Below, piece by piece: positions 3,290-39,202 of a stretch of DNA of 64,000 nucleotides. Every line of letters begins with the position of its first letter. Positions within the stretch are counted from its first letter, which is position 1. Source of the stretch: Acetobacter cerevisiae (GTDB lineage Bacteria; Pseudomonadota; Alphaproteobacteria; Acetobacterales; Acetobacteraceae); assembly GCF_001580535.1 (NCBI RefSeq), contig NZ_LHZA01000155.1:1-64000 (forward strand). The letters are read 5' to 3'. The position numbers were made by a program, and so were the translations under genes. The notes below the pieces were generated by a model, which did not search any database, was not told the origin of the DNA, and saw only the letters and a list, made by a program, of their open reading frames with translations.

Positions 3290-3541
3290 ATGAGCGAAAC
3301 CGTTGAAAGCGTGTCTGCGCTGATCATCCAGAAGCTTCTCGCCAATCCGAAAGTGCCGCGCGATATCGACGGCAACTGTAAGATCATGGACGATCTGGCC
3401 TTTGATTCTCTGGCAGTCATGAACTTTGTCATGGAAGTGGAAGACAGCATGGATGTCTCCGTTCCGCTCGACAAACTGGCTGATATCCGGACCATCAATG
3501 ACCTTGCCGCCTGCGTTGTTGATCTGAAAAACAAAGGCTGA
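3290..3541 (+). CDS. Acyl carrier protein, dedicated to the sphingolipid locus
   Basis: Small acidic protein of 83 residues with the ACP phosphopantetheine site FDSLAVMNF. Ser40 in the DSL motif is the expected attachment point. Hydrophobic helix residues and acidic stretches (EVEDSMD) match the usual four-helix ACP. It lies between the acyl-AMP ligase that probably loads it and serine palmitoyltransferase, which is expected to use the acyl thioester; 6 bases separate its stop from the next start. It is not the fatty-acid-synthesis acpP by context. A start at the ATG of MSETVES is supported by an AAGGA-type site (GATTTTAAA spacer) just upstream. Confidence 0.9.
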   Translation: MSETVESVSALIIQKLLANPKVPRDIDGNCKIMDDLAFDSLAVMNFVMEVEDSMDVSVPLDKLADIRTINDLAACVVDLKNKG

Positions 3542-5740: not shown

Positions 5741-6718
5741 TCATGCCTGTAGGAAAGAAAGAATCGGTCCTGCGGAAATTTCCAGACTTTGCGCCGGTCC
5801 CGTTTCCAGAACCTCACCATCCAGCACGAATGACTGCTCCGTGTTGAGCAGAACCTGCCGGGCAGAACCGCTTGAATAGGTTGGGTCTGCCCGCAGCCAT
5901 GCAGGGCTACGCCCACGCAACAGGCTCCAGATGGCCCGCATCAGTTTTTTGGGATTTGCGGCCACATCCAGATAGCTGATGCCTTCGTCCGCTCCACCCC
6001 CACGCCAGAACGGCCAGATGCCATGCGGCAGACAATGCAGCCCCGTGCACAGGAACAGGAAACGGTTGTGCGCTTCCAGCTCACCTCCGTTCAGGCCAAG
6101 TCCGACCGGCGTCCCATCCAGCCAGCTTTGCCGCAGGCGCGGCGTGATAATCTGCCGCAAGGTTTCCGCCAGCGTAATGAGCACAGCAGTATCGTGCGCA
6201 TAATTTTTCAGGATGGCGGGCGAATGGGCAATTTCGATTCCACGCGTAAACGCACCCAGGCCGCCAAAAAAGCCCAGAACCGGTGCACGATCCTGCCCCG
6301 GCCAGGAGACAACCAGAGGCTGACGCTGCTTGACGTCTGACACCAGACGGTCTGAGCGGGCTCTGTCCTGAAGTCGCTGCAAAGCTTCCTCACCCCGCAT
6401 GCCAAACCCGACGTCGGCGGCTATCAGATTTGTATTACCGGATGGCAGAACGGCGATCATCGGCAGTCTGTCTTTGGGGTAAGATGAGACGTACAGCGCG
6501 CTCAGCACATTGCCGACCGTACCATCCCCTCCGTCCACTACCAGACACCGCACGTCCTGCCGTGCCATGTCTTCTATGACGTCATGCAGTTCGGTCTGGG
6601 AGTCTGGCGAGAAAAACAGCGGCCCCAGAGTGCGGCGCGCGCAGTCCAGATAACGACTATCCGCCTTGAGATTGCGTCGGCTGCGGGAATTGTGAATCAA
6701 GACGAAACGATCGGGCAC
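5741..6718 (-). CDS. Diacylglycerol/ceramide-kinase family lipid kinase
   Basis: Protein of 325 residues with the DAGK catalytic fold. The nucleotide loop is VVDGGDGTVGNVL (GGDGT at 63-67), PSGNTN lies at 92-97, and a C-terminal VLDGE near 305-310 supplies the usual metal/ATP-contacting Asp. It should phosphorylate a lipid hydroxyl at the inner membrane face. In Caulobacter a kinase of this family within the sphingolipid locus (CpgB) is a ceramide kinase. The same function here is an inference from context, with diacylglycerol or sphingoid base as alternatives. It starts with GTG (MPDRFVLIH) and is followed after one base by the Tam41-like gene. It is divergent from the metallophosphoesterase operon. 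Confidence 0.75.
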   Translation of the reverse strand: MPDRFVLIHNSRSRRNLKADSRYLDCARRTLGPLFFSPDSQTELHDVIEDMARQDVRCLVVDGGDGTVGNVLSALYVSSYPKDRLPMIAVLPSGNTNLIAADVGFGMRGEEALQRLQDRARSDRLVSDVKQRQPLVVSWPGQDRAPVLGFFGGLGAFTRGIEIAHSPAILKNYAHDTAVLITLAETLRQIITPRLRQSWLDGTPVGLGLNGGELEAHNRFLFLCTGLHCLPHGIWPFWRGGGADEGISYLDVAANPKKLMRAIWSLLRGRSPAWLRADPTYSSGSARQVLLNTEQSFVLDGEVLETGPAQSLEISAGPILSFLQA

Positions 6719-24308: not shown

Positions 24309-25121
24309 CTACCCTTCTGTCAAAAAGTCTTTTTCGATTGTGAGACGCGGCAAGGGATTCCGCCCCGCCAATATCCGCAGCCCGTTAAGGGTCAGCATTG
24401 AATCCACGTGATCAAACACCGTTGTGCCTTCCGAGAAGAGCGGAGCCAGACCGCCAGTTGCGAGCACCTTCATGTTTTGCCCGACTTCCTGCCTGATCCT
24501 CTCGACGATCCCCTCGATCAAACCCACGTAACCCCAGAACACGCCTGACCGCATAGCGGCCACTGTATTACGCCCAATGACGGAATCCACCGCCGGGCGT
24601 CCAATTCCTATTCTCGGCAACCGTGCGGCTGCCTGATGCAGAGCCTCAACCGAAAGGTTGATGCCCGGTGCAATTACACCCCCGCAATAGCTGCCCTCTG
24701 CATCCACCACATCAAAGGTTGTGGCGGTGCCAAAATCAATCACCGTCAACGGACCACCGTACAGATGGTGTGCCGCAAGCCCGTTTAAAAGCCGGTCCAC
24801 GCCAACTTCGTCCGGATTATCCATTTTGATGGAAAATCCCCAGTCCAGCCGGGCGGACGCCAGCAGCGGCTCCACCGCAAACCACTGGCGACACAGGGTG
24901 CGCAGATGGTAGAGTGCTGCGGGCACCACCGTGCCAATCACAGCGCCTTCAATATCATCCGCTGCAATCCCCTGCATCTTCAGCAGGGCCAGCAGCCAGA
25001 CCGCGTACTCATCAGACGTGCGCTGGGCCTGCATGGTAATGCGCCAGACACCCCGCCATTTTTCGCCATCATGCACGGCAAACACGACATTCGTGTTGCC
25101 AGCATCAATGACGAGAAGCAA
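24309..25121 (-). CDS. coaX: Type III pantothenate kinase
   Basis: First enzyme of coenzyme A synthesis, 270 residues, ASKHA fold. The N-terminal phosphate loop is IDAGNTN (Asp6), with [11 protein letters not shown] as the second conserved block and TGGLAP as the third nucleotide-contacting block. Type III enzymes use a monovalent cation and are not feedback inhibited by CoA. The only start that preserves the beta-strand LLVIDAG is a TTG at 25121, and this overlaps the birA 3' end by 17 bases in another frame, so translation is probably coupled. Confidence 0.93.
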
Positions 25122-25869
25122 CGTCAGCCCCCTGTTCTGCCAGCAGGATATCCCCTGTTGCGATCGTTTTCATGCCCTGTTCCGTCTCAAGCAGAAGCCG
25201 TCCATCAGCGGCAAGCCCTGCAAACTGGCCCTTTTCATAAGTAGTCCCGCCGCTTACGACAAGGGGCGTGCCCACAGGATGTGCACGTTTCCGCCATTCC
25301 GCACACAAAACGGCAAAGCCATCCTGCTGCCAGACAGCACACCAGTGCGCCAGCTGCGCGAGAATGGCGCGGGCCACATCAGCAGGCGGCGGGACCGGGC
25401 CACACTGCCCTAAAGAGGCCGCTCTCCGGCCAATCTGCGCTTCCTCCGGCGGCTGCACGAGGTTGGCCCCCATACCGATAACCAGCATCGGCCCTTCCCG
25501 CTCAATCAGGATGCCACCGAGCTTCTGGCCGTCCAGCAGAATATCATTCGGCCATTTGATCATCAGCCGGTCTCGCGCCGCGGGAACGCTGGTCGCCAGC
25601 CCTTCAAAAAACGCCAGAGACGCCACAAAGGGCCAGCCCCCCAGTGCGTCCAGCCCCGCCTGCCCCGCATCCAGCAGAACAGAAAAGGCAAGACTTTGCC
25701 CGGCATTGGCCCAGTTGCGCCCCCGGCTACCGCGCCCTTTTGTCTGGCGCAATGCCAGAAGCGCCAGCCCCGGTGCTTCTCCGGTGCGGGCGCGTTCCAG
25801 ACAGACATCGGAGGTGGACGTCAGTTCCTCATAACATTCCAGCCGCCAGGCTGCCGTCGGCTCACTCAT
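25105..25869 (-). CDS. birA: Biotin-[acetyl-CoA-carboxylase] ligase
   Basis: Class I biotin protein ligase of 254 residues. It activates biotin as biotinyl-AMP and transfers it to the carrier lysine of acetyl-CoA carboxylase. The biotin/ATP-binding loop [10 protein letters not shown] lies at 44-53, KWPND at 105-109 and KLGGILIE at 116-123. It has no N-terminal helix-turn-helix, so it does not act as a repressor, unlike E. coli BirA. The ATG overlaps the nuoN stop (ATGA) and the 3' end overlaps coaX. Confidence 0.93.
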
Positions 25870-27308
25870 CCGCCAAGGGCCAGAGCAGCCTGTCGGGCCA
25901 TAGCCATCAGCGGGCCAAGAGCGAGAATAAAGAATACTGTCGCCAGCCCCATGCTACCCGAGACAAACAAGAGGCTGCGTGCTGGCCGGTCCAGCCCCTC
26001 CGCAGAGGCATCAAAATACATCACCTTCACCACCCGCAGATAATAATACGCACCAATAACGCTTGAGACTGCCCCGATCGCCACCAGAACGTAAAGGCCG
26101 GATTGCCATGCAGCGGCAAAAACCATCAGTTTCCCGAAAAAACCTGCCAGCGGCGGCGCGCCGACCATGCTGAACATGAACACCGCCAGCGCAGCCGCCA
26201 GTCCGGGGTCTGTCCGGCCCAGACCGGCCAGGTCAGAAATGGAGGTCACTTCATGCCCTCTGCGACGCATGGCCGTAATCACGGCGAATACCCCGGCATT
26301 CATGACCAGATAGGCCGCCAGGTAGACCAGCGTGGCCCGCACGCCGTTGGTGGATGCCGCCGCTAACCCCATGAGCGCGTAGCCCATATGGCCGATAGAG
26401 GAATAGGCCATCAGCCGTTTGATGTTGGTCTGCGGAATGGCAGCAAATGCACCGTAGACCATAGAGAGGATAGACAGCGTTTCAATCAGGATCTGCCAGC
26501 GCGGAGCCATAGACCCAAACGGGCCGCTCATCACGCGCAGGAACAGCGCAAAGGCCGCAAATTTGGGAGCGCCTGCCATATAGGCAGTGATGGGCGTGGG
26601 CGCCCCCTGATACACATCCGGCGTCCACATATGGAATGGCACAACCGAGAGCTTGAAGCTCAGCCCCACAACAAGGAACACAAGGCCGACCATCAGCCCC
26701 GTGGGCAGCGTAGCTGTTTGCTGAATGGCGGCAATCAGCCCGGTATAGGCCATGGTCCCCGCATACCCATAGATCAGAGACATGCCATACAACAGCAGAC
26801 CGGACGCCAGAGACCCAAGAACGAAATATTTCAGCCCGGCCTCGGAGGACGTGACATCGTCCCGCTCCAGCGCGCACAGGATGTAAATGGAGAGCGAGGA
26901 CAGCTCCAGCCCGACAAACAGCGTCATCAGATTGGCGGAGGACGCCATGATCAGCGCGCCGAGGGTTGAAAACAGGATCAGCACGCCCGTTTCAAACGGA
27001 AGCGGCGTGCGCTCTTCCGTGCGGTAGCTGAGGGTCAGCACCAGCGCTACCAGCCCGCCAAGCAGGGCCAGCATTTTCATGAAGCGGGCAAAGCCGTCAT
27101 TCACAAAGGTACCTGCATAGGCCATGCCATCGGGCGAGAGGGCCACCAGCACACCACAGCCGACAAACGCCGCGACCGTCAGCAGGGTGCAGGACACAAT
27201 GCCCTTCCCTTCCCGCTGCAAGACGCCAAACACAAGAATAACCAGCCCCGCCAGTGCGAGCGCGATTTCCGGCAGAGCCAGCGTCCAGTTAACCGATGCA
27301 GCACTCAT
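25866..27308 (-). CDS. nuoN: NADH-quinone oxidoreductase subunit N
   Basis: Antiporter-like proton-pumping subunit of complex I, 480 residues with about 14 membrane helices. The family signature FVGLELSSLSIYILCAL contains the key Glu on helix 5, VGLSFKLSVVPFHMWTPDVYQGAPTP carries the helix 7 Lys, and MAYSSIGHMGYAL the helix 9-10 area. It is complete. Its ATG overlaps the stop of an 18-codon remnant ORF rather than a nuoM gene. nuoN normally follows nuoM, so its neighbour here is abnormal. Confidence 0.96.
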   Translation of the reverse strand: MSAASVNWTLALPEIALALAGLVILVFGVLQREGKGIVSCTLLTVAAFVGCGVLVALSPDGMAYAGTFVNDGFARFMKMLALLGGLVALVLTLSYRTEERTPLPFETGVLILFSTLGALIMASSANLMTLFVGLELSSLSIYILCALERDDVTSSEAGLKYFVLGSLASGLLLYGMSLIYGYAGTMAYTGLIAAIQQTATLPTGLMVGLVFLVVGLSFKLSVVPFHMWTPDVYQGAPTPITAYMAGAPKFAAFALFLRVMSGPFGSMAPRWQILIETLSILSMVYGAFAAIPQTNIKRLMAYSSIGHMGYALMGLAAASTNGVRATLVYLAAYLVMNAGVFAVITAMRRRGHEVTSISDLAGLGRTDPGLAAALAVFMFSMVGAPPLAGFFGKLMVFAAAWQSGLYVLVAIGAVSSVIGAYYYLRVVKVMYFDASAEGLDRPARSLLFVSGSMGLATVFFILALGPLMAMARQAALALGG

Positions 27309-27361
27309 GGCTCGGCACTCCGTTCAGAGCAGGAGAAAACAGGAAAGACAGCGTGGGTCAT
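27305..27361 (-). pseudogene. nuoM: Remnant of nuoM: 18-codon in-frame relic
   Basis: Between nuoL and nuoN, where nuoM (about 500 codons) belongs, only 63 bases remain. On the minus strand they hold GGAGA, 5 bases, then an ATG opening 18 codons (MTHAVFPVFS-CSERSAEP) that end at a TGA overlapping the nuoN ATG. The first ten residues look like an antiporter-subunit N-terminus ('FPxxS'). The simplest reading is an internal deletion that kept frame, ribosome binding site and coupling to nuoN. The identity as nuoM is inferred from position. Misassembly across paralogous nuoL/M/N sequence is an alternative. Confidence 0.6.
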
Positions 27362-27371
27362 TTCAGTCTCC

Positions 27372-29324
27372 TCACCCGCAGAGGGCTACGGTCAGTACCA
27401 CGACCAACCCCGCCAGCATGGTGAACGCATAGAACGCGATAGACCCGGTTTGCAGACGGATAGCGTCAGACGCGCCATTGGCCGTCGCCTGCACCAGATC
27501 ACGCGGGAGGCCTTCAACCGCCCCTTCCTCGCCGTCTTTCCAGAGAATACGGGCGAGGGCGGTATAAGGCCGGACAAAAATGCGGTCATACAGCTCATCA
27601 AAATACCATTTGTTGAGCAGGAACCGATAAAGAGGGCCACAGGAGCGAGCCAGCGCTCCCGGCAGATCCGGTCTGGCAATATAGAACACATACGCTACAG
27701 CAATACCCGCCAGCCCGACCAAAGAAGGCAGAAGCGCCACCAGTCCCGGCACATGCTCAAAGATTTCCATGATGCTGTTATCCGGCGCATTGAAGATGCT
27801 GCCTTGCCAGAACGCGGCCTGCTGCGTGCCAATATAATACGGAGCCAGCACAATCCCGCTCACCACAGAGCCGATTGCCAGCAGCACCAGCGGAATAGTC
27901 ATGGAAAGCGGGCTTTCATGCGCGGCGTCCCGCATTTGTGCATCCGCTGGCGCACCGTGGAATACCAGAAAGATCAGACGCCAGCTGTAGAAGGCTGTCA
28001 GGAAGGCCGTGATGACGCCCAGCGTCCACGCATAATGGCTCATGCCGCTATCCGCCGCCCAAAGCGTGTTGAGGATGGCGTCTTTGGACCAGTAGCCGGC
28101 AAAGGGGAACACGCCGGCCAGCGCCAGACTACCAATCCACATCACCGCATACGTCAGCGGCAGTTTTTTCCACAGCCCGCCCATGCGGAACATGTTCTGT
28201 TCATCATGCATGGCATGGATCACGGAACCGGCTCCCAGGAACAGCAGCGCTTTGAAAAAGGCATGTGTTGTCAGGTGAAAAACGGACGCCTGATACGCTC
28301 CCACGCCGACAGCCGCGAACATATACCCCAGCTGGGAGCAGGTGGAATAGGCAATGCTCCGCTTGATATCCGGCTGCACCATGCCGACCGTGGCGGCAAA
28401 AAAACAGGTTGTGGCACCAATAAATATCACGAACAGGCGGGTGTTCGGTGCAACCTCCAGCAAGGGCGACATCCGCGCCATCAGGAAGACGCCAGCCGTC
28501 ACCATGGTGGCTGCGTGGATTAGCGCCGAGACAGGGGTTGGGCCTTCCATGGCGTCGGGCAGCCATGTGTGCAGAAAGAGCTGTGCTGATTTCCCCATGG
28601 CCCCGACAAACAGCAGGAAGCTGATGACTTCCACCATACGGAAAGACTGCCCGAACAGCGTGTACGGTGCCCCGGCAACCTGCGGCACAGCGGCGAAAAT
28701 GTCCTCATACCGCACGGACTGGAACTGGACATAAATCAGGCCAATCCCGACGAGGAAAAACAAGTCTGCCACGCGGTTGACCACAAAAGCCTTGATGGCC
28801 GCAGCCGTGGCGGCCGGACGGTCATACCAATAGCCAATGAGCAGATAACTGGCGAGGCCGACCCCTTCCCACCCGAAAAACAGCTGAATGAGGTCCGAGG
28901 ACGACACCAGCATGAGCATGGCGAAGGTAAACAGCGAGAGATACGCAAAAAACCGATAAACCGGCATGCTCTCATGGCTCATATAGCCAAGGCTGTAGCA
29001 GTGAACCAGCAGCGAGATGCACAGCACCATGGCCGTCATGGTCACGGAAAGCGTATCGAACCGCAGGGTCCATGTGGCGTGAAAGCCGCCCGCATTGATC
29101 CAGTCCGCCAGCGGCACGGCAGAGGGGCCAAAGCCGGAGGTCCAGCCGCCATACAGCGCTCCCACCCCGCACAGGGTGGCCATGCCCATGCACAGCAATG
29201 TCACGATTTTGGCCGCAGTGTCGCCCATCAGGCGGCCACCGAGCCCTGCCACAACGGCACCCGCCAGAGGCAGAGTCACGGCTGCGGCAAACAGGTGAAG
29301 ATCGGTCTGCATGAGTCCGCTCAT
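27372..29324 (-). CDS. nuoL: NADH-quinone oxidoreductase subunit L
   Basis: Largest antiporter-like subunit of complex I, 650 residues with about 15-16 helices and the long lateral helix near the C-terminus that braces the membrane arm. Seen: [22 protein letters not shown] (helix 5 Glu), [23 protein letters not shown] (helix 7-8 Lys/His region) and [13 protein letters not shown]. It is full length. The ATG overlaps the nuoK stop in ATGA. The lateral helix normally runs over NuoM and NuoN, so absence of NuoM would disturb its packing. Confidence 0.96.
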
Positions 29325-29644
29325 CCCTTCATCATCGTGACGTCTTCGACCTGGATCGAGCCACGGTTACGGAAATACACCGTGACAATCGCCAGCCCGA
29401 TGGCGGCTTCCGCTGCGGCAATGGTGAGCACAAACAGCACCATCACCTGCCCGGAGAGATCTCCATGCGCGGAGGAAAACGCCACAAAATTCAGATTGGC
29501 CGCCAGAAGAATGAGCTCCATGGACATCAGGATGATGATGATATTCTTCCGGTTAAGAAAAATACCCAGCACCCCCAGCACCAGCAGCGCCGCACTGACC
29601 ACAAGATAAGGCCCAAGCCCGATAGGAGCGATTGCCGGTGTCAT
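29321..29644 (-). CDS. nuoK: NADH-quinone oxidoreductase subunit K
   Basis: Small three-helix membrane subunit of complex I, 107 residues (the usual size is about 100). The two conserved membrane glutamates are in [12 protein letters not shown] (second helix) and [11 protein letters not shown] (third helix); they form part of the E-channel linking quinone reduction to proton movement. [11 protein letters not shown] is the usual short C-terminal tail. Both ends overlap the neighbouring nuo genes by four bases. Confidence 0.96.
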
Positions 29645-30357
29645 GCGCCAGTCTCCTCTTTTTCCGCCTCTTTGCGCTGCTCATCAGAACCGTAAGAGCC
29701 GGGAGCAGCAATTTCGTAATACGAGGTTCGGGGGCGCAGAAAACCACCCTGCTCCAACACGTTTTCGCCAAGTGGCAGTTGCACAAGCTCCAGCGTCTCT
29801 TCACGTGTGCGTGCATGCTGTTTTTCGATATTCTGCCGACGCCCGCTACCGGTTTGACGGAGGGTGAGCACAATAGCCCCGATCATGGCGACGAGAAGCA
29901 CCAGCCCGCAGGCCTGAAACAGCAACACGTAGTGGGTATAGATCAGCGTGCCCAAAGCCGCCGTGTTGGTCAGGCCGGGAGCCGCCTGCACTGCTCCCCC
30001 CGCACTGGCCGGAGCCATGCTCCAGTTGCTCATAGCCATAACGAGCTCGGCAAACAGGATGCCCCCAACACACGCCCCGATAGGCGCGTTACGCTGCAAG
30101 CCTTCCCGCAGTTGCGTGAAATCAACATCCAGCATCATGACGACAAACAGGAACAGGACCGCCACCGCGCCGACATAGACAATGACCAGCAGCATCGCCA
30201 GGAACTCGGCTCCAGCGATGAGAAACAGTCCGGATGCATTGAAAAACGCCAGAATAAGAAACAGCACTGCATGCACCGGGTTGCGCACACTAATGACCAT
30301 ACCCGCAGACATCAGCAACACGGCGGCAAAAACGTAAAAAACAACCTGCGCCAACAT
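29641..30357 (-). CDS. nuoJ: NADH-quinone oxidoreductase subunit J
   Basis: Membrane subunit of complex I, 238 residues, five helices in the first 175 residues. The third helix ([20 protein letters not shown]) carries the pi-bulge Tyr/Gly region conserved in the family. The last 60 or so residues form a charged soluble tail (from about [13 protein letters not shown] to the end) longer than in E. coli, while alphaproteobacterial NuoJ proteins are often extended here. The gene lies 36 bases after nuoI, the widest gap in the operon apart from the nuoM scar. Confidence 0.94.
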
Positions 30358-30393: not shown

Positions 30394-30882
30394 TTAACGA
30401 TACGGGGCATCGTATTCCAGCCGACGGGCTAGCAAGGCTTCCCACCGGTCTCCATTTTCAAGGAGCTTATCCTTGTCGTAGAGCAACTCTTCCCGTGTTT
30501 CTGTAGCGAATTCGTAATTGGGCCCTTCGACAATGGCATCCACCGGGCAGGCTTCCTCGCACAGACCGCAATAGATGCATTTTGTCATGTCGATATCGTA
30601 ACGCGTGGTGCGGCGGGAGCCATCATCGCGCTCTTCCGCCTCAATCGTAATAGCTTCCGCCGGACACGTAGCTTCGCAAAGCTTGCAGGCAATGCAGCGC
30701 TCTTCCCCATTCGGGTAACGCCGCAGGGCGTGTTCCCCGCGAAAGCGCGGCGAAAGCGGCCCTTTTTCATACGGGTAGTTCAGCGTCACCTTCGGCTGGA
30801 ACATCATTTTGAATGTTGAAGCCATCCCACCGACAAGTTCTGTCAGCAGGAACGAGCGGAACGTGCGTGTTAAAGCGCCCAT
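30394..30882 (-). CDS. nuoI: NADH-quinone oxidoreductase subunit I (two 4Fe-4S clusters)
   Basis: TYKY-type electron carrier of the complex I connecting arm, 162 residues. Two ferredoxin motifs are intact: C63-x2-C66-x2-C69-x3-C73 and C102-x2-C105-x2-C108-x3-C112, binding clusters N6a and N6b that relay electrons to NuoB. An amphipathic N-terminal helix precedes them. It has the normal alphaproteobacterial length. Its ATG shares one base with the nuoH stop. Confidence 0.97.
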
Positions 30883-31910
30883 CAGTTTACGCCTCCTACC
30901 TGTGGCAACAGGCCTGTGGCCATCAGGAAACCAGCCGTTGCAATCATCCAGACCAGTGACAGCGGCAGGAAGACTTTCCAGCCAAGACGCATCAGCTGGT
31001 CATACCGGAAGCGGGGAAATGTTGCCCGGATCCAGATAAACACAAAGAGGCAAAACAAGATTTTAAAAATCAGCCACAGCGGTCCGGGTACCCATGTAAA
31101 GGGCGCCAGCCCTAGCGGTGGCAGCCAGCCTCCCAGAAACAGAATGCTAATCATGCCTGACATCAGGATCATGTTTGCATATTCACCAAGAAAAAAGAGA
31201 CCGAAGGCCAGTGACGAATATTCCACAAAGAACCCGGCCACGAGTTCACTCTCGCCTTCCGGCAGGTCAAACGGCGCACGATTGGTTTCCGCGAGCGCCG
31301 AAATGAAGAAGACGATAAACATCGGGAACATTGGCACACAGAACCAGATATGGCGCTGGGCCAGCACAATATCATTCAGGTTCAGGCTGCCTACGGCCAG
31401 CAGGACCGAGACAATGACCAGCCCAATGGACACTTCATATGAGACCATCTGCGCGGCAGACCGCAGCCCACCCAGAAAGGCATAGCGGGAATTGGATGCC
31501 CACCCGGCAATCAGGATGCCGTAAACCCCCAACGAGGAAATGGCGAGCAGATACAAAATGCCAACATTGATATCCGCCACGGCCAGACCGTTTCCGGTTG
31601 GAATAACTGCCCAGGCCAGCATGGCGAGAGAAAAGGTGAGAAACGGTGCAAAGAGAAACAGCGCCCGGTTTGCCCCGGCGGGAATAACCGTTTCCTTCAT
31701 AATCATCTTGATGGCATCGGCAAATGCCTGAAACATCCCGAACGGGCCGTTCACATTCGGCCCGCGCCGACGCTGCATGGCCGCCATCACCTTGCGCTCC
31801 ATAAGCGTCAGATACGCCACGGCAATCAGCAACGGCACCAGAACGGCCAGTGTTTCCAGCAGCATCAGAATAATCTGGCCTGCGAGCGTATGATAAAAAA
31901 ACTGCGCCAT
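30882..31910 (-). CDS. nuoH: NADH-quinone oxidoreductase subunit H
   Basis: Membrane subunit that forms the quinone chamber with NuoB and NuoD, 342 residues with eight or nine helices. The characteristic [23 protein letters not shown] segment is present around residues 36-58, as is the acidic loop [20 protein letters not shown] that lines the quinone site, and [17 protein letters not shown] near the C-terminus. It is full length, six bases after nuoG. Confidence 0.97.
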
Positions 31911-31916
31911 TCGCCC

Positions 31917-34016
31917 TTACTCCGCCGCTACTGCACGCACAGGCCCGTAAACACGGGAACAGTCCGCCATGGTGGGGCTGGCCCGGCTGATGGGGTTGGT
32001 CTGGTAGTAATCCTGCATCACCGGTCTGAAAGCGCTTGCAGCAAGCCCCTCCTCCTGCGCGGCGGAAACCGCCGGCACACTCGGTGCGGACACGCCCTGC
32101 CCTTCAATCTGCGTAATCGGCTGAGCAACAGCCCCGATCTGCCGGAAGATCGGATTGACCTCTGCCATCCTGTCCCGCAGAGCATCCAGCGTGTCATAGG
32201 GCAGTGTTTTGCCGATCACTTCAGAAAAAGCGCGAAGAATACGCCAGTCTTCCCGCGCCTCACCCGGCGGGAAAACAGCCCGGAAGCTCCGCTGCACGCG
32301 GCCTTCCGTGTTGACATACGTGCCCGGTTTTTCCGTATAGGCCGCACCCGGCAGGATGATATCGGCGCGGGCCGCGGCAGCATCGCCATGGTGGCCCTGA
32401 TAGACCACGAACGTGTCAGCCTCGATTTTATCAACCGGGAATTCATCAGCACCCAGCAGCCAGAGAACATCAACGTCCCCCCGCAGCATGCCGCTGGCGT
32501 TGCGCCCGCGCGTGCCGGGCAGGAAGCCGAGGTCCAGCGCGCCAACGCGTGAGGCCGCAGTGTGCAGGACGTTAAGCCCGTTCCAGCCCTCTGCAATCGC
32601 GCCGGTCTGAATGGCCAGTTTTTTACAGGCGTCATAAATAGCTGATGCATCAGGGCGGGTCAGCGCGCCATGACCGATGATAATCATGGGCCGCTTTGCG
32701 GTTTGCAGAGTTTCGGCAAAAGGATGACTACCATCAAGAAGCTTTTCCAGAACCTCTGGCCCATCCCCAAGCAACTCAGCCGGATAGGTTGGGTCCGTCA
32801 GCGGGTGTCCGATCATGGCAATCGGGAAGCGACCGCGCCCGGAATCCAGAAAGCGTTTACGGATACGGGCATTCAGCACCGGAGCCTCATGCCGAGGATG
32901 CGTCCCCACCAGCAGAAGGGCATCGGCCTCCTCTATGCCGAGAATGCCGCTGTTAAACAGATAGCCTTCCCGCGCACTGAGGTCATACCAGGCGTTATCC
33001 TGACGACAGTCGAGATTGGGCGAGCCCAGAGACGTCATCAGGTCTTTCAGAGCACACAGGCTTTCCGCGTCACATAGATCCCCCGCAATAGCACCGATCT
33101 GATAGCCAGAAACCCCATCCAGACGCCGTGCGAGAGATACAAAAGCCTCCTGCCAGGACGCCTGCATCAGTTTGCCATGCACCCGCACCCACGGGCGATC
33201 CAACCGCCTGCGCTTGAGGCCATCAACTGAAAAACGCCCTTTGTCAGACAGCCATTCTTCATTCACCTCATCATTCACGCGCGGCACAATCCGCATGACC
33301 TCACCGCCACGCGCCTGAATCTGGATGTTGGTGCCAACAGCATCCATCACATCAATGCTGTCCGTCTTTTTGTATTCCCAGGAACGGGCATGAAAGGCGG
33401 AGGGCTTGGCCGTCAGCGCGCCCACCGGGCAGATATCAATCAGGTTGCCAGATAGTTCTGACGTCAGCGCCTTTTCTACATAGGTGGTGATTTCCGCATT
33501 TTCGCCACGGGAGACCATCCCCAGTTCCGGCGTTCCTGCCACTTCCGTGGTGAAGCGCACACAGCGTGTGCACTGAATGCACCGCGTCATCACGGTTTTG
33601 ACCAGCGGACCGAGGTCTTTATCCGTTACCGCCCGCTTGGGTTCGTGATAGCGAGACACCCCGGTGCCATACCCGTAGGCCTGATCCTGCAAATCACACT
33701 CACCACCCTGATCGCAGATCGGGCAATCCAGCGGGTGATTAATCAGCAAAAACTCCATCACCGCACGGCGGGCACGACGCACCATCTCAGTGTCCGTCAG
33801 GATTTCCATCCCCTCCGAAACCGGGAAGCCACAGGAGGCAACTGGCTTAGGCGCACGCACCACCTGCACAAGGCACATCCTGCAGTTACCGGCTACGGAA
33901 AGCCGTTCATGATAGCAAAAGCGGGGAATTTCCTTGCCCGCAGCCTCACAGGCCTGCAAGGCGCTGAAACCGGCTGGCACATCAACAGGAGTGCCATCAA
34001 CAATCACCCTCACCAT
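31917..34016 (-). CDS. nuoG: NADH-quinone oxidoreductase subunit G
   Basis: Large iron-sulfur subunit of the peripheral arm, 699 residues. The N-terminal 2Fe-2S ferredoxin domain is visible (CYHERLSVAGNCRMCLVQ), then the His/Cys N5 cluster region (HPLDCPICDQGGECDLQD) and a 4Fe-4S motif (CIQCTRCVRF), followed by a molybdopterin-oxidoreductase-like domain that binds no cofactor in this family. Alphaproteobacterial NuoG is typically about 690 residues, so this is full length. It is five bases from nuoF. Confidence 0.96.
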   Translation of the reverse strand: MVRVIVDGTPVDVPAGFSALQACEAAGKEIPRFCYHERLSVAGNCRMCLVQVVRAPKPVASCGFPVSEGMEILTDTEMVRRARRAVMEFLLINHPLDCPICDQGGECDLQDQAYGYGTGVSRYHEPKRAVTDKDLGPLVKTVMTRCIQCTRCVRFTTEVAGTPELGMVSRGENAEITTYVEKALTSELSGNLIDICPVGALTAKPSAFHARSWEYKKTDSIDVMDAVGTNIQIQARGGEVMRIVPRVNDEVNEEWLSDKGRFSVDGLKRRRLDRPWVRVHGKLMQASWQEAFVSLARRLDGVSGYQIGAIAGDLCDAESLCALKDLMTSLGSPNLDCRQDNAWYDLSAREGYLFNSGILGIEEADALLLVGTHPRHEAPVLNARIRKRFLDSGRGRFPIAMIGHPLTDPTYPAELLGDGPEVLEKLLDGSHPFAETLQTAKRPMIIIGHGALTRPDASAIYDACKKLAIQTGAIAEGWNGLNVLHTAASRVGALDLGFLPGTRGRNASGMLRGDVDVLWLLGADEFPVDKIEADTFVVYQGHHGDAAAARADIILPGAAYTEKPGTYVNTEGRVQRSFRAVFPPGEAREDWRILRAFSEVIGKTLPYDTLDALRDRMAEVNPIFRQIGAVAQPITQIEGQGVSAPSVPAVSAAQEEGLAASAFRPVMQDYYQTNPISRASPTMADCSRVYGPVRAVAAE

Positions 34017-34021
34017 AGCGT

Positions 34022-35350
34022 TTACTCCGCAGCCACTGGCACGCCGGAGGCTGGCACCTGCACCAGCCCCGTGCCGCCATGTGCTGCCTTATACTGGCGG
34101 ATGCGTTCTTCCATTTCCGGCCGGAAATGGCGGATAAGACCCTGAATTGGCCAGGCGGCGGCATCACCCAGCGCGCAAATGGTGTGGCCTTCTACCTGAC
34201 GGGTCACCTGCTCCAGCAGGTCAATTTCATCCAGTTCCGCCCGGCCCTGAACCATCCGATCCATCATGCGCATCATCCAGCCGGTTCCTTCCCGGCACGG
34301 GGTGCACTGCCCGCAGCTTTCATGTTTGAAAAAGCGTGAGAACCGGGCAATGGCTTCAATAATGTCGGTCGATTTGTCCATGACAATCATGCAGCCCGTG
34401 CCCAGACCGGAACGCTCTGCGCGCAGACTGTCATAATCCATCAGCACAGTTTCACACACGGATTTTGGCAAAACCGGAACCGAGCATCCGCCCGGGATGA
34501 CGGCCAGAAGATTATCCCAGCCACCCCGAACGCCACCGCCATGTTTTTCGATAATTTCTTTCAGCGGCACCCCAAGTTCTTCTTCAAAAACACATGGCGT
34601 ATTCACATGGCCGGAAATGGCCATCAACTTGCTACCCGCATTGTTAGGCCGCCCCAGCCCGACGAACCATGCCGCCCCCCGCCGCAGAATGGTGGAGGTC
34701 ACGGCAATGCTCTCCACGTTATTCACGGTGGTCGGGCACCCATAAAGCCCAGCCCCGGCGGGGAATGGGGGCTTCATCCGTGGCTGGCCTTTTTTGCCTT
34801 CCAGACTTTCCAGCAGGGCCGTTTCTTCCCCACAGATATACGCTCCGGCACCGCGATGAATGAAGAAATCAAAATCCCAACCGGATCCAGAGGCATTTTT
34901 GCCAATCAGTCCGGCAGCATAGGCTTCATCCACCGCAGTCTGAAGATGGACGGCTTCATTAAAAAACTCGCCACGCACATAGATATAGGCGGCATGCGCG
35001 CCCATGGCGAAAGAGGCAATCAGTGCGCTTTCAATCAGCTTATGCGGTTCATGCCTGAGAACTTCACGATCTTTACAGGTTCCCGGCTCTGACTCATCGC
35101 CATTGATCACCAGGTAATGCGGCCGGCCATCGGACTTTTTGGGCATGAAGGACCATTTCAGCCCGGTCGGGAACCCGGCTCCGCCGCGACCGCGCAGGCC
35201 GGATGCCTTCATTTCCGCAACAATGGCATCCCGCCCTTTTGCCAGAATCTCCGCTGTATTCTGCCAGTCTCCCCGCTTACGCGCGCCCTCTAACCGCCAG
35301 TCATCCTGGCCGTAGAGATTTGTGAAGATCCGGTCCTTGTCCTGCAACAT
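34022..35350 (-). CDS. nuoF: NADH-quinone oxidoreductase subunit F (NADH/FMN site)
   Basis: Site of NADH oxidation by FMN, 442 residues. The glycine-rich NADH loop [16 protein letters not shown] lies at 51-66, the FMN-binding [13 protein letters not shown] region follows, then the cluster N3 motif [11 protein letters not shown] and its fourth cysteine further on (HTICALGDA). With NuoE and NuoG it makes the dehydrogenase module. The start is an ATG with GGGCATG context 11 bases after the nuoE stop. Confidence 0.97.
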
Positions 35351-35361
35351 GCCCGTCTCTC

Positions 35362-36003
35362 CTACTTGTTTTCAGAAATCGAATGGACAGAATCCATCAG
35401 CGTCTTACGGCCGCCTTCCGGAGCAGAGCCGCAACGGTTGATTGTCGGGCCGGCAGGCGGACGTTCCCCTTTGCGCAGCGCGTCAATCAGCGCCACAGTG
35501 CGCGGGCCGTCCATGTCTTCATAAAAATCATCATCAACCTGCAGGATAGGCGCATTGGAACACGCGCCGAGACACTCCACCTGTGTCAGGGTGAACTGCC
35601 CGTCTGCGCTGGTCTCGCCAAAACCCGCAATGCCGGTCGCACGCTTGCAGGCTGCCACAACATCATCTGAACCCCGCAGCCAGCATGGCGTTGTGGTGCA
35701 AACCTGCAAATGGTAGCGGCCCACAGGCTTTGTGTTGAACATGGTGTAGAAAGACGCCACCTCATAAACCCGGATGGCGGCCATTTCCAGCCGACGCGCA
35801 ATCTCATCCATAGCTGCCACAGGCACCCATGCACTTCCGGTTTCCCGCCCCATTTGCCGCTGAGCAATATAGAGCAGCGGCATAACCGCACTGGCTTTGC
35901 GCTCTTCAGGATATTTGGCGAGCACAGTCACAATTTCCGCCTCGGACGCACTATCGAAAGCAAAGCTATCAGGCTGTTCCTGCGGTGTCCGGTGTGTATT
36001 CAT
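35362..36003 (-). CDS. nuoE: NADH-quinone oxidoreductase subunit E (2Fe-2S)
   Basis: Thioredoxin-like subunit carrying cluster N1a, 213 residues. The four ligands are Cys102 and Cys107 in VCTTTPCW and Cys144 and Cys148 in [11 protein letters not shown]. The N-terminal helical domain contains [15 protein letters not shown]-terminal tail rich in Gly and Pro follows the core. ATGA overlap with nuoD. NuoE and NuoF together oxidise NADH. Confidence 0.96.
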
Positions 36004-37283
36004 CGGTCAACCTCCCCGAAAACCAGATCGAGCGAGCCAAGAACCGCCACCATATCGGCCAGCATGGAGCGGCGGGACAGTTCATCCAGAGCCTGCAAAT
36101 GCGCAAAACCTGTCGGGCGGATTTTGCAGCGATATGGCTTGTTGCTGCCATCAGCCACCAGATACACCCCGAACTCACCTTTCGGGCTTTCCACGGCGGT
36201 ATACGTGGCCCCCGGCGGCACATGATATCCTTCACTAAACAGCTTGAAGTGATGAATGAGCGCTTCCATGGAGCGCTTCATTTCCGCACGGGGTGGCGGA
36301 CTGAATTTTGGGTCCTGCACTTTGACGTCCCCGGGGCGGATCTGATTCAGACATTGCTCAATAATGCTGACGCTCTCGCGCATTTCCGCAACACGAACGA
36401 GATAGCGATCATAGCAATCCCCATGACGGGCCACCGGCACGTTGAATTCCACCTTATGGTAGTTGTCATACGGCTGCGTGCGGCGCAGGTCCCACGGCAC
36501 GCCGGAGGCCCGCAGGCAGGGGCCACTAAATCCCCAGGCCAGTGCCTGCTCGGCTGTGAAAACGCCAATCCCGACCGTGCGCTGTTTCCAGATTCGGTTT
36601 TCCGTCAGCAGGCCTTCCAGCTGATCAATCCATGCCGGGAATTCTTTGGCCCATGCGCCAATTTTATCTTCCAGCCCCGCAGGAAGATCCTGTGCCACAC
36701 CACCGGGGCGGAAATAATTGGCATGGAAGCGCGCGCCGGAAGCTGCCTCGTAAAACTCCAGCAGCTTTTCACGCTCTTCATACCCCCACAGAGCAGGCGT
36801 CACCGCGCCACAATCCAGACCAAGCGCTGTGATATTCAAAATGTGGTTTAGAACACGGGTGATTTCCGCAAACATCACCCGCAACCAGCGGGCACGTTCG
36901 GGAATTTCAATCCCCAGAAGCTTTTCCGTCGCCAGCGCAAACGCCTGCTCTTCACACATGGGAGAGACGTAATCCAGCCGGTCAAAATAGGGCAGCGCTT
37001 TCTGATAGGTTTTGTATTCTATCAGTTTCTCCGTGCCACGATGCAGAAGCCCGATATGCGGCACCGTGCGCGCCACAAGCTCACCTTCCATTTCCAGCAC
37101 AAGGCGTAACACGCCATGTGCGGAAGGATGCTGCGGCCCGAAATTCAGCGCATGGGAATCAATCTCCAGCGTCTTGCGTTCCCGCGCTTCCACCTGCTGC
37201 TCCGGCAGCAGGCTTTCCGGAATATCCGTCCGCAGAATAGCGTCTGCGTCATTCAGCAGGATGCCTTTGTCCGCGTCTGTCAT
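36000..37283 (-). CDS. nuoD: NADH-quinone oxidoreductase subunit D
   Basis: 49-kDa-type subunit forming the quinone-binding pocket with NuoB, 427 residues. The N-terminal [13 protein letters not shown] loop (about 48-60) contains the conserved His that contacts the quinone head group. [18 protein letters not shown] and the C-terminal ARGE-like [22 protein letters not shown] segment are typical. nuoC and nuoD are separate genes as in other Alphaproteobacteria, unlike the E. coli fusion. It overlaps both neighbours by four bases. Confidence 0.97.
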
Positions 37284-37945
37284 CCGCGTGACCTCCTGAT
37301 ATGTTGCCGGACCTCGTGCGCTTTCTCATCCCCCGGCAAGGTCAGCATGCCTTCCCATGGGGAAACAAAATCAAAATTACGGAAATCCTGCGCAAGCGAG
37401 ACAGGCTCCTTCACCACCTGCCGGCTTGCCACGTCGTAGCGCACTTCCTCATAGCCGGTCAGCGGGAAATCCTTGCGCAGCGGGTAGCCTTCAAACCCGT
37501 CATCCGTCAGGATACGCCGCATGTCCGGGTTGCCGGAAAACTGCACGCCGAACAGATCGTAGCATTCCCGCTCCCACCAGCACGCACACGGCCAAAGGCC
37601 TGAAACGGATGCTACCGGCGCAACTTCATCCGTGGTGATAATCACGCGGATGCGCTGGTTAAGCGTGACGGAAAGCAGGTTATAGACCACGTCAAACCGC
37701 TCGGCCCGGCTGGGATAGTCCACCCCGCACAAATCCATCATCTGCTCAAACCGGCACTGTGGATCGTCCCGCAGGAAGGTCATGAGCGGCACAAGCTGAT
37801 CCCGGGTCGTGCGGACCACCAGTTCACCCTTCTCCAGCGCAGCGGATGAAACGTTTGGCCAGGCTGTGGAGAAGGTGAAGGCCAGAGCCCCGAGGCGCCC
37901 CTGAAGGCTGACCTGCTGCGGAGAGGAAAGACGCGCATCAACCAC
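37280..37945 (-). CDS. nuoC: NADH-quinone oxidoreductase subunit C
   Basis: 30-kDa-type subunit of the connecting arm, 221 residues, no cofactor. The family signature [22 protein letters not shown] is present near 127-148 with [13 protein letters not shown] after it. The N-terminal 50 residues are more variable, so the exact start is less sure; the given ATG overlaps the end of nuoB by eight bases. Confidence 0.95.
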
Positions 37946-38501
37946 GGAGAATGGTCCCGGTGCGGCGAATTTTCTTCTGAAGCAGCATGATGCCGTAAAT
38001 CAGCGCTTCTGCCGTAGGTGGGCAGCCGGGCACATAGACGTCCACCGGCACAATCCGGTCACACCCACGCACCACGGAATAGGAGTAGTGGTAATACCCT
38101 CCCCCGTTAGCGCAGGAGCCCATGGAAATGACCCAGCGCGGCTCTGCCATCTGCTCATAGAGCCGACGCAGCACCGGGGCCATCTTGTTGGTCAGCGTGC
38201 CCGCAACGATCATCACGTCCGACTGCCGGGGCGAACCGCGCGGGATAATGCCCATGCGGTCCAGATCGTACCGGGGCATATAGGCGTGGATCATCTCTAC
38301 AGCGCAGCACGCCAACCCGAAGGACATGGGCCACAGACTGCCTGTGCGCCCCCAGTTGACCAGCTTGTCCAGATTGGCAACCACAAAGCCCTTCTCGGCA
38401 ATGGCGCCCGTAATGCCTCGCACCACGGCATCCTGCTCCGGTCCGGGTGGAAGGGCTTCACGATTCCACAGAATGGTTTCGTCTTGCGGATTTGCAGACA
38501 T
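37938..38501 (-). CDS. nuoB: NADH-quinone oxidoreductase subunit B (cluster N2)
   Basis: PSST-type subunit holding the terminal cluster N2 that reduces quinone, 187 residues. Ligands are the tandem Cys65-Cys66 in [10 protein letters not shown], Cys130 in [10 protein letters not shown] and Cys160 in [12 protein letters not shown] start at the ATG of MSANPQDE, 11 bases after the nuoA stop and preceded by GGGAG. An earlier in-frame ATG would overlap nuoA by 30 bases. Confidence 0.96.
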
Positions 38502-38512
38502 CGGCGGCTCCC

Positions 38513-38878
38513 TCAATCCCAGTCCAGCGCGCCTTTGCGCCATTCATACAGAAAGCCGATCCCCAGCACGCTCAGGAACCCCAGCATGGACAAGAAGCCA
38601 AACAGCCCTATGCGAGACAGGCTGACAGCCCAGGGGAACAGAAACGCGACCTCGAGGTCGAAAATAATGAAAAGGATCGCGACCAGATAAAACCGCACAT
38701 CAAAACGACGGCGCGTATCATCAAAGGCCTCAAATCCGCACTCATAGGCCGTTACTTTTTCAGGATAAGGTTTTTGATGGCCGCATAGCAGCGCCATACC
38801 CAGCATTGCAGCCGCAATAACTACTGAAATAGCACCGAATACCAAAACAGGGGCGTAATCACCAAGAACAGACTGCAT
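38513..38878 (-). CDS. nuoA: NADH-quinone oxidoreductase subunit A
   Basis: Three-helix membrane subunit of complex I, 121 residues from the ATG of [11 protein letters not shown], which has AAGGA six bases upstream. Three in-frame ATGs upstream (up to 38914) are less well placed. The conserved [23 protein letters not shown] loop (conformationally mobile Cys loop next to the quinone site) and [15 protein letters not shown] are clear. First gene of the nuo operon, with 249 bases between it and tRNA-Val. Confidence 0.96.
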
Positions 38879-39062
38879 CTGTATTCCTTGCATGAGAGAG
38901 ATCATGAAGATCAAACGTCATGCAGAGGATCCTAGACCTAAGTCTTTACAACAGCCATGCCCTGACACCAGTCATAACGGGCACGTTCCCGTGACTACTT
39001 AGAGGGACCACGTGAAACTGCCGTGAATATGGCGGAAAACTACAGATTTTGGGGGATATTCA
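38879..39062 (-). promoter_or_regulatory. nuo operon leader region
   Basis: This space must hold the nuo promoter. On the minus strand I see no strong sigma-70 pair. A CGGG-CACGTT-CCCG inverted repeat lies near 38978-38991, and an AGAC/GTCT repeat (38934-38945) is closer to the gene. Either could be a regulator site. Nothing more can be supported. Confidence 0.3.
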
Positions 39063-39127: not shown

Positions 39128-39202
39128 TGGTGGGCGATGACGGGGTCGAACCGCCGGCCCTCTCGGTGTAAACGAGACGCTCTACCTCTGAGCTAATCGC
39201 CC
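39128..39202 (-). tRNA. tRNA-Val (anticodon UAC)
   Basis: The reverse complement folds as a tRNA. The acceptor GGGCGAT pairs with ATCGCCC, the D arm is GCTC-AGAGGTA-GAGC, the anticodon stem TCTCG/CGAGA encloses TTTACAC (anticodon TAC), and the T arm contains GGTTCGACC. Discriminator A and an encoded CCA follow (39128-39130). It is separate from the nuo operon, with its own terminator downstream. Confidence 0.95.

Follow-up and report, generated by a model that had tools for sequence, protein, structure and literature searches.

nuoM lies outside the nuo operon of Acetobacter cerevisiae, downstream of mutL, and very probably completes complex I from there

Acetobacter cerevisiae very probably encodes a complete complex I, since its nuoM gene has not been lost but only occupies a distant genomic site, as in close relatives; the detached gene, located downstream of mutL, would provide NuoM in trans. 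The DNA analysed here, referred to as the window, is a stretch of 64,000 nucleotides (positions 1 to 64,000 of contig NZ_LHZA01000155.1 in assembly GCF_001580535.1) that contains a nuo operon without nuoM. A previous sequence-only reading of the window interpreted the gap as an internal deletion that left an in-frame scar between nuoL and nuoN and deprived complex I of one antiporter module. The absence of nuoM from the operon was correctly recognized. The separation of nuoM from the operon is clade-wide; the arrangement is ordinary for the clade and its evolutionary background is moderately interesting.

The operon is encoded on the minus strand and extends from position 38893 to 25866 in the order nuoA, B, C, D, E, F, G, H, I, J, K, L, N. 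Its first gene, nuoA (38513-38893; PF00507), is read from the ATG at 38893, and a longer form with a TTG start at 38914 is possible. It is followed by nuoB (37938-38543; PF01058), nuoC (37280-37945; PF00329), nuoD (36000-37283; PF00346), nuoE (35362-36003; PF01257), nuoF (34022-35350; PF01512 and PF10589) and nuoG (31917-34016; 699 aa), the last named from its sequence and position only, without a family scan. The distal part consists of nuoH (30882-31910; PF00146), nuoI (30394-30882; Fer4 domains and place within the operon), nuoJ (29641-30357; PF00499), nuoK (29321-29644; PF00420), nuoL (27372-29324; 650 aa), which scores 776.1 bits with TIGR01974 (cut-off 407.5), and nuoN (25866-27308; 480 aa), which scores 575.2 bits with NF004440 (cut-off 519). 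A tRNA-Val (tac) gene (39128-39202) and an HU-like gene precede nuoA, and a birA-like gene (25105-25869) comes after nuoN; the HU and birA names are readings of the sequences. No second complex I operon was found in the window genome by NuoL and PF00361 searches of the assembly, which yielded single copies.

In the assembly to which the window belongs (3,085,002 bases in 157 contigs, completeness 99.99), PF00361 has three matches: nuoL and nuoN of the window and an intact nuoM on another contig, C81. The latter gene (C81:12092-13606) starts with GTG, encodes 505 aa in an uninterrupted frame and is situated in the interior of a 114,558-bp contig. Its product matches TIGR01972 (NDH_I_M) over residues 6-485 with 538.7 bits, well above the cut-off of 263.8, and reaches 548.1 bits, below the cut-off of 585, with the stricter NCBIfam model NF004499. 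As both scores exceed that of the best Mrp model (174.5 bits), the protein is NuoM and not an antiporter paralogue of the Mrp or hydrogenase type. The closest relative in the PDB is NuoM of Paracoccus (8qby_M, E 6.6e-121), with whose motifs the segments FYEATLIP, GVKLPLFPLH, GVLSKTGAYG and SFVGEVLV align. These Glu/Lys/His motifs contain what we take to be the glutamate of TM5, two lysines and the glutamate of FVGE in the proton path. All 14 nuo genes are thus found in the genome, 13 of them in the window and nuoM on C81. The sequence-only reading had itself named a complete nuoM elsewhere in the genome as refuting, and because an intact copy lies inside C81 the implied loss of the gene from the cell falls.

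On C81, nuoM is flanked upstream by the 3' end of mutL, with both genes in the same orientation, and on the other side by a gene for an rhtA-like exporter. A consensus sigma-70 promoter was sought at nuoM and not found. In relatives a conserved block, TGCTCTGCGGAACGTGAAC, precedes nuoM, and eight aligned sequences share a well-conserved stretch between mutL and nuoM, TGCTCTGCGGAACGTGAACAG...TTCTCTGGT (in L091 at about 5995-6035). In the window, TGCTCTGCGGAACGTGAAC has no match with up to 3 mismatches, and a shorter form of the block has five matches compared with 1.26 expected, none of them at nuoA. A regulatory motif common to nuoM and nuoA was dropped as a candidate, since the block upstream of nuoM has no counterpart before nuoA.

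Detachment of nuoM is not peculiar to this strain. A NuoM with 66-98% identity to the C81 protein is present in all 36 other genomes of the genus. In a sample of 299 genomes of the family, 243 had a NuoM match at E <= 1e-100 and 248 a NuoN match at E <= 1e-75. Of 150 nuoM rows among the matches listed, 36 without a paired nuoN row were dropped and the distance between nuoM and nuoN was determined for the rest; NuoMs at least 58% identical to that of C81 were classed as the detached type. Among the matches listed, nuoM was far from nuoN in all 40 genomes of the detached type, either on another contig (27) or at a distance of at least 188 kb (13), and in all 68 other rows it lay 0-212 bp from nuoN. 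Relatives of the operon type have nuoM between nuoL and nuoN. One genus, g124, contains both arrangements: its three genomes (L105-L107, 2.7 Mb) have two nuoM genes, one 98-99 bp from nuoN and the second 613-656 kb away.

The neighbourhood of the detached gene is largely preserved. Among 67 detached-type genomes whose flanks were examined (L004-L060, L092-L101), 59 have mutL upstream of nuoM and in the same orientation, usually with a gap of about 0.1-0.2 kb, which widens to 0.8 to 7.2 kb in five genomes. In the other eight (G010, G012, G017, G019, G027, G032, G034, G191) mutL was not found in the fetched flanks, which in G017, G027 and G034 covered only 1.5 kb. The second nuoM of g124 adjoins a gluQ-like gene, and the flanks fetched for it contain no mutL.

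An assembly error at the nuoL-nuoN junction, the alternative named by the sequence-only reading itself, is ruled out because the same junction recurs in relatives, at 40 of 40 loci in the family and 38 of 38 in the genus (eight loci belong to both sets), and because both genes are found far apart on one contig in 13 genomes. The same counts argue against a recent deletion.

Several observations were made beside the main line of the analysis. Nine genomes of the genus (G003, G007, G008, G014, G017, G024, G026, G027, G034) have a second NuoM-type protein, 35-38% identical, and several of these lie beside further NuoL- or NuoN-like matches; these nine genomes probably contain a second, distinct complex I operon, which the window genome does not have. 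In the family sample, 56 of the 299 genomes lack a NuoM match at the threshold of E <= 1e-100, and 51 lack one for NuoN at E <= 1e-75. Some of the genomes without NuoM or NuoN matches are small, nearly complete and assembled in a single contig, and complex I of this kind has probably been lost in several genera of the family. Two loci of the genus are irregular. A NuoN-type match in L159 (G009:C214:26282-27097) contains one in-frame TGA, owing to a broken gene or a sequencing error, and in L151 (G029:C170) the nuoL frame seems to end 429 nt before nuoN while NuoL-like sequence goes on, which points to a frameshift or an error in the draft.

The junction from which nuoM is missing has features of its own. 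As the sequence-only reading described it, the spacer between nuoL and nuoN is 63 bp long and has on the minus strand GGAG, an ATG at 27361, 18 codons (MTHAVFPVFSCSERSAEP) and a TGA that ends at 27305 and overlaps the nuoN ATG as ATGA. This mini-ORF (27305-27361, minus strand) begins 10 nt past the nuoL stop and is a probable coupling element, possibly built on an old nuoM start. The corresponding junctions were read in 38 of the 40 genomes of the genus (G015 and G034 were left out). In all 38, nuoL and nuoN are adjacent, with spacers of 37-148 nt (that of L151 being unclear), and in 37 an ORF of at least 14 codons that starts with ATG ends on the nuoN start; L152 is the one exception, its ATG-started ORF ending 7 nt ahead of nuoN. 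In nine of the 37 junctions the start of the mini-ORF coincides with the nuoL stop. Of the 27 spacers that measure 58-72 nt, 26 have the mini-ORF inside; 300 shuffles of the spacers, in which the last 14 nt before nuoN were kept, gave 1.4 on average and never more than 5. As the species are related, these counts are not to be read as a probability.

The encoded peptide is not preserved. Differences between the mini-ORFs are spread over codon positions 1, 2 and 3 as 49, 47 and 43, and 25 close pairs differ in 21 synonymous and 86 non-synonymous codons. A conserved small protein was rejected on these grounds, as the peptide drifts without codon bias. That the mini-ORF is kept at the junction while its peptide drifts suggests translational coupling of nuoL and nuoN, in which the mini-ORF of Acetobacter, by ending on the nuoN start, would probably hand ribosomes from one gene to the next.

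The scar proposed by the sequence-only reading is another matter. That the mini-ORF is a trimmed remnant of the start of the operon nuoM, now serving coupling, is plausible, though short of probable. Its position after nuoL is close to that of the nuoM start in family operons, where NuoM begins approximately with MNxAGFPLLS or MNxAGFPVLS at -4 to 13 nt past nuoL (17 family rows), and its own start, MTHAVFPVFS, shares 6 of 10 residues with the operon NuoM start of g124, MNQAGFPVLS. In shuffles of the same peptide this similarity had p values of 2e-4 for the window and 4e-4 for the sister L155, and of the 31 peptides tested the remaining 29 had p above 0.01. Joint shuffling of columns, which preserves relatedness and in which 13 of the 17 operon rows were compared in one register, gave 0.006 for the window clade (six), 0.04 for all 27 genus peptides and 0.17 when the window clade was omitted; the signal is thus weak outside the window clade, although nuoM had separated from the operon long before that clade arose. 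The lack of codon bias in the drifting peptide also weighs against a remnant, as does the comparison with the end of NuoM, where none of the 27 peptides had a similarity equalled in as few as 5 of 100 shuffles. Furthermore, the detached loci outside the genus have shorter spacers, -4 to 34 nt in 32 of 32 with the nuoN start chosen by script, so that any scar would have had to become shorter there. Start position and shared residues therefore keep the scar suggestive, and the spacers outside the genus speak against it.

The origin of the detached gene was examined in a rooted NuoM tree of 57 rows, comprising 23 of 70 detached sequences, 17 operon sequences, five from g124 and 12 class outgroups. 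In this tree the second g124 copy joins the detached NuoMs at 100/100 on a stem of 0.67, and the resulting group is nested inside the family NuoMs at 98/98. The operon NuoM of g124 lies outside the detached group, with no firm place among the operon rows, and of 200 bootstrap trees only 30% recover the detached rows minus g124 as one clade. Those operon rows that come closest to the detached stem are long branches, and long branches may attract in this tree. When the within-group mean was subtracted from the detached-operon distance (10 detached and 11 operon genomes), values of 1.11 for NuoM, 0.59 for NuoN and 0.58 for NuoL were obtained, which means that NuoM has diverged about twice as much as NuoN and NuoL. 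In a rooted NuoL+NuoN tree, g124 joins other genera of the operon type (82/76), and four operon genera are nearer the detached clade (83/90). A smaller NuoL+NuoN tree likewise fails to unite g124 with the detached clade. Forcing the two together gave an AU p of 0.08 and was not rejected. Because neither NuoL+NuoN tree has g124 next to the detached clade, it is less than clear that the second nuoM of this genus is a duplicate that was kept, and the rooted tree weakens the case for g124 as a retained intermediate.

Three histories were weighed against these trees. It is conceivable, if somewhat doubtful, that a second nuoM arose, diverged and took over before the operon copy was lost, with g124 keeping both genes. 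The coexistence in g124 of an operon copy and a copy that joins the detached clade is in favour of such a duplication, as is the excess divergence of NuoM over NuoN and NuoL; the NuoL+NuoN trees oppose it, since they put g124 among the operon genera and other operon genera nearer the detached clade, and a union of g124 with the detached clade, at the AU value given above, requires losses elsewhere. Alternatively, a single nuoM could plausibly have been relocated to the mutL region, g124 having received its detached-type copy later by transfer. The gluQ-like neighbour of that copy in place of mutL and the position of g124 in the NuoL+NuoN tree agree with relocation, as does the finding that 59 of 67 detached genomes have mutL ahead of nuoM in the same orientation, but a move alone does not explain the twofold divergence of NuoM, and the second g124 copy itself sits on a long branch (0.75). 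Acquisition of the detached nuoM from another lineage, perhaps one within the family, with replacement of the native gene, is unlikely: the long stem of the detached clade would fit it, but the detached NuoMs fall within the operon NuoMs of the family and not with the 12 class outgroups, a placement that long branches could have distorted.

The function of nuoM would have passed to the detached copy in an ancestor shared by the acetic acid bacteria, perhaps after a time with two copies, and the operon nuoM between nuoL and nuoN would have been lost; the detached gene very probably supplies NuoM in trans to the subunits encoded by the operon. A combined scenario, in which a paralogous, rapidly diverged NuoM replaced the operon subunit, g124 with both genes could build complex I in two forms, and what was left of the old nuoM start turned, in Acetobacter, into a mini-ORF that couples nuoL and nuoN translation whatever its peptide, is speculative and rather improbable as a whole.

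That complex I operates without NuoM and pumps fewer protons, as the sequence-only reading expected, is extremely improbable. The idea drew on the operon without nuoM and on the 18-codon ORF that bridges nuoL and nuoN. It is refuted, unless the gene is silent, by the intact nuoM elsewhere in the same genome, which keeps the functional motifs, and relatives retain nuoM as well. Moreover, NuoM protein has been measured in A. pasteurianus. In the accessible part of that proteome study nuoM is gene 1610 by the paper's naming and the other nuo genes shown are numbered 3342-3354; the NuoM ratios of 0.62/0.33/2.16/1.78 go in the same directions as those of the operon subunits NuoB (0.39/0.24/2.72/2.05), NuoH (0.29/0.09/2.43/1.85) and NuoN (0.93/0.31/2.22/2.12) (PMC10742644). 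This covariation in a related species speaks for a supply of complex I from the detached gene but is no proof of it.

The result disposes of a false lead, namely that complex I here has no pump module from NuoM, and illustrates that a gap in an operon calls for a search of the entire genome. Together with a genus that has both types of nuoM, the split across the clade offers a natural case of how a single subunit gene can be moved or replaced in a membrane machine whose parts are tightly coupled, and of how expression stays coordinated from two loci.

The split of nuoM from the operon is already in print, as a listing. For A. pasteurianus SKU1108, the accessible part of the paper lists a nuoA-nuoN operon of 13 locus tags, APT_01737-APT_01725, and nuoM apart as APT_00690 (PMC5158111), and for A. 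pasteurianus 386B complex I is given as APA386B_556-567 plus APA386B_2247, one gene apart whose name is not stated there (PMC3751514). The two sets are alike in having one complex I gene apart from the operon; in the accessible parts of both papers the separate gene is listed without comment, and the clade-wide extent, the double copy of g124 and the mini-ORF do not appear. In the portion available of the Gluconacetobacter diazotrophicus genome paper, 13 CDS are called a complete nuoA-nuoN (PMC2765452), and an Asaia paper, as far as its available text goes, compared nuoHIJKLN, without M (PMC4596401). In the literature searched for a displaced nuoM, mostly open-access, no discussion of its extent, of the g124 double copy or of the mini-ORF was found beyond such listings.

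With the canonical alphaproteobacterial operon, in which nuoM sits between nuoL and nuoN and NuoM is of the Paracoccus type (8qby_M), the window genome shares the subunit set, the NuoM family and the motifs, and it differs in that its nuoM lies outside the operon. A 2M complex I, of the Nitrospira type, contains two NuoM subunits. Genus g124 likewise has two NuoM genes, but its second gene is far from the operon, and the window genome has a single NuoM.
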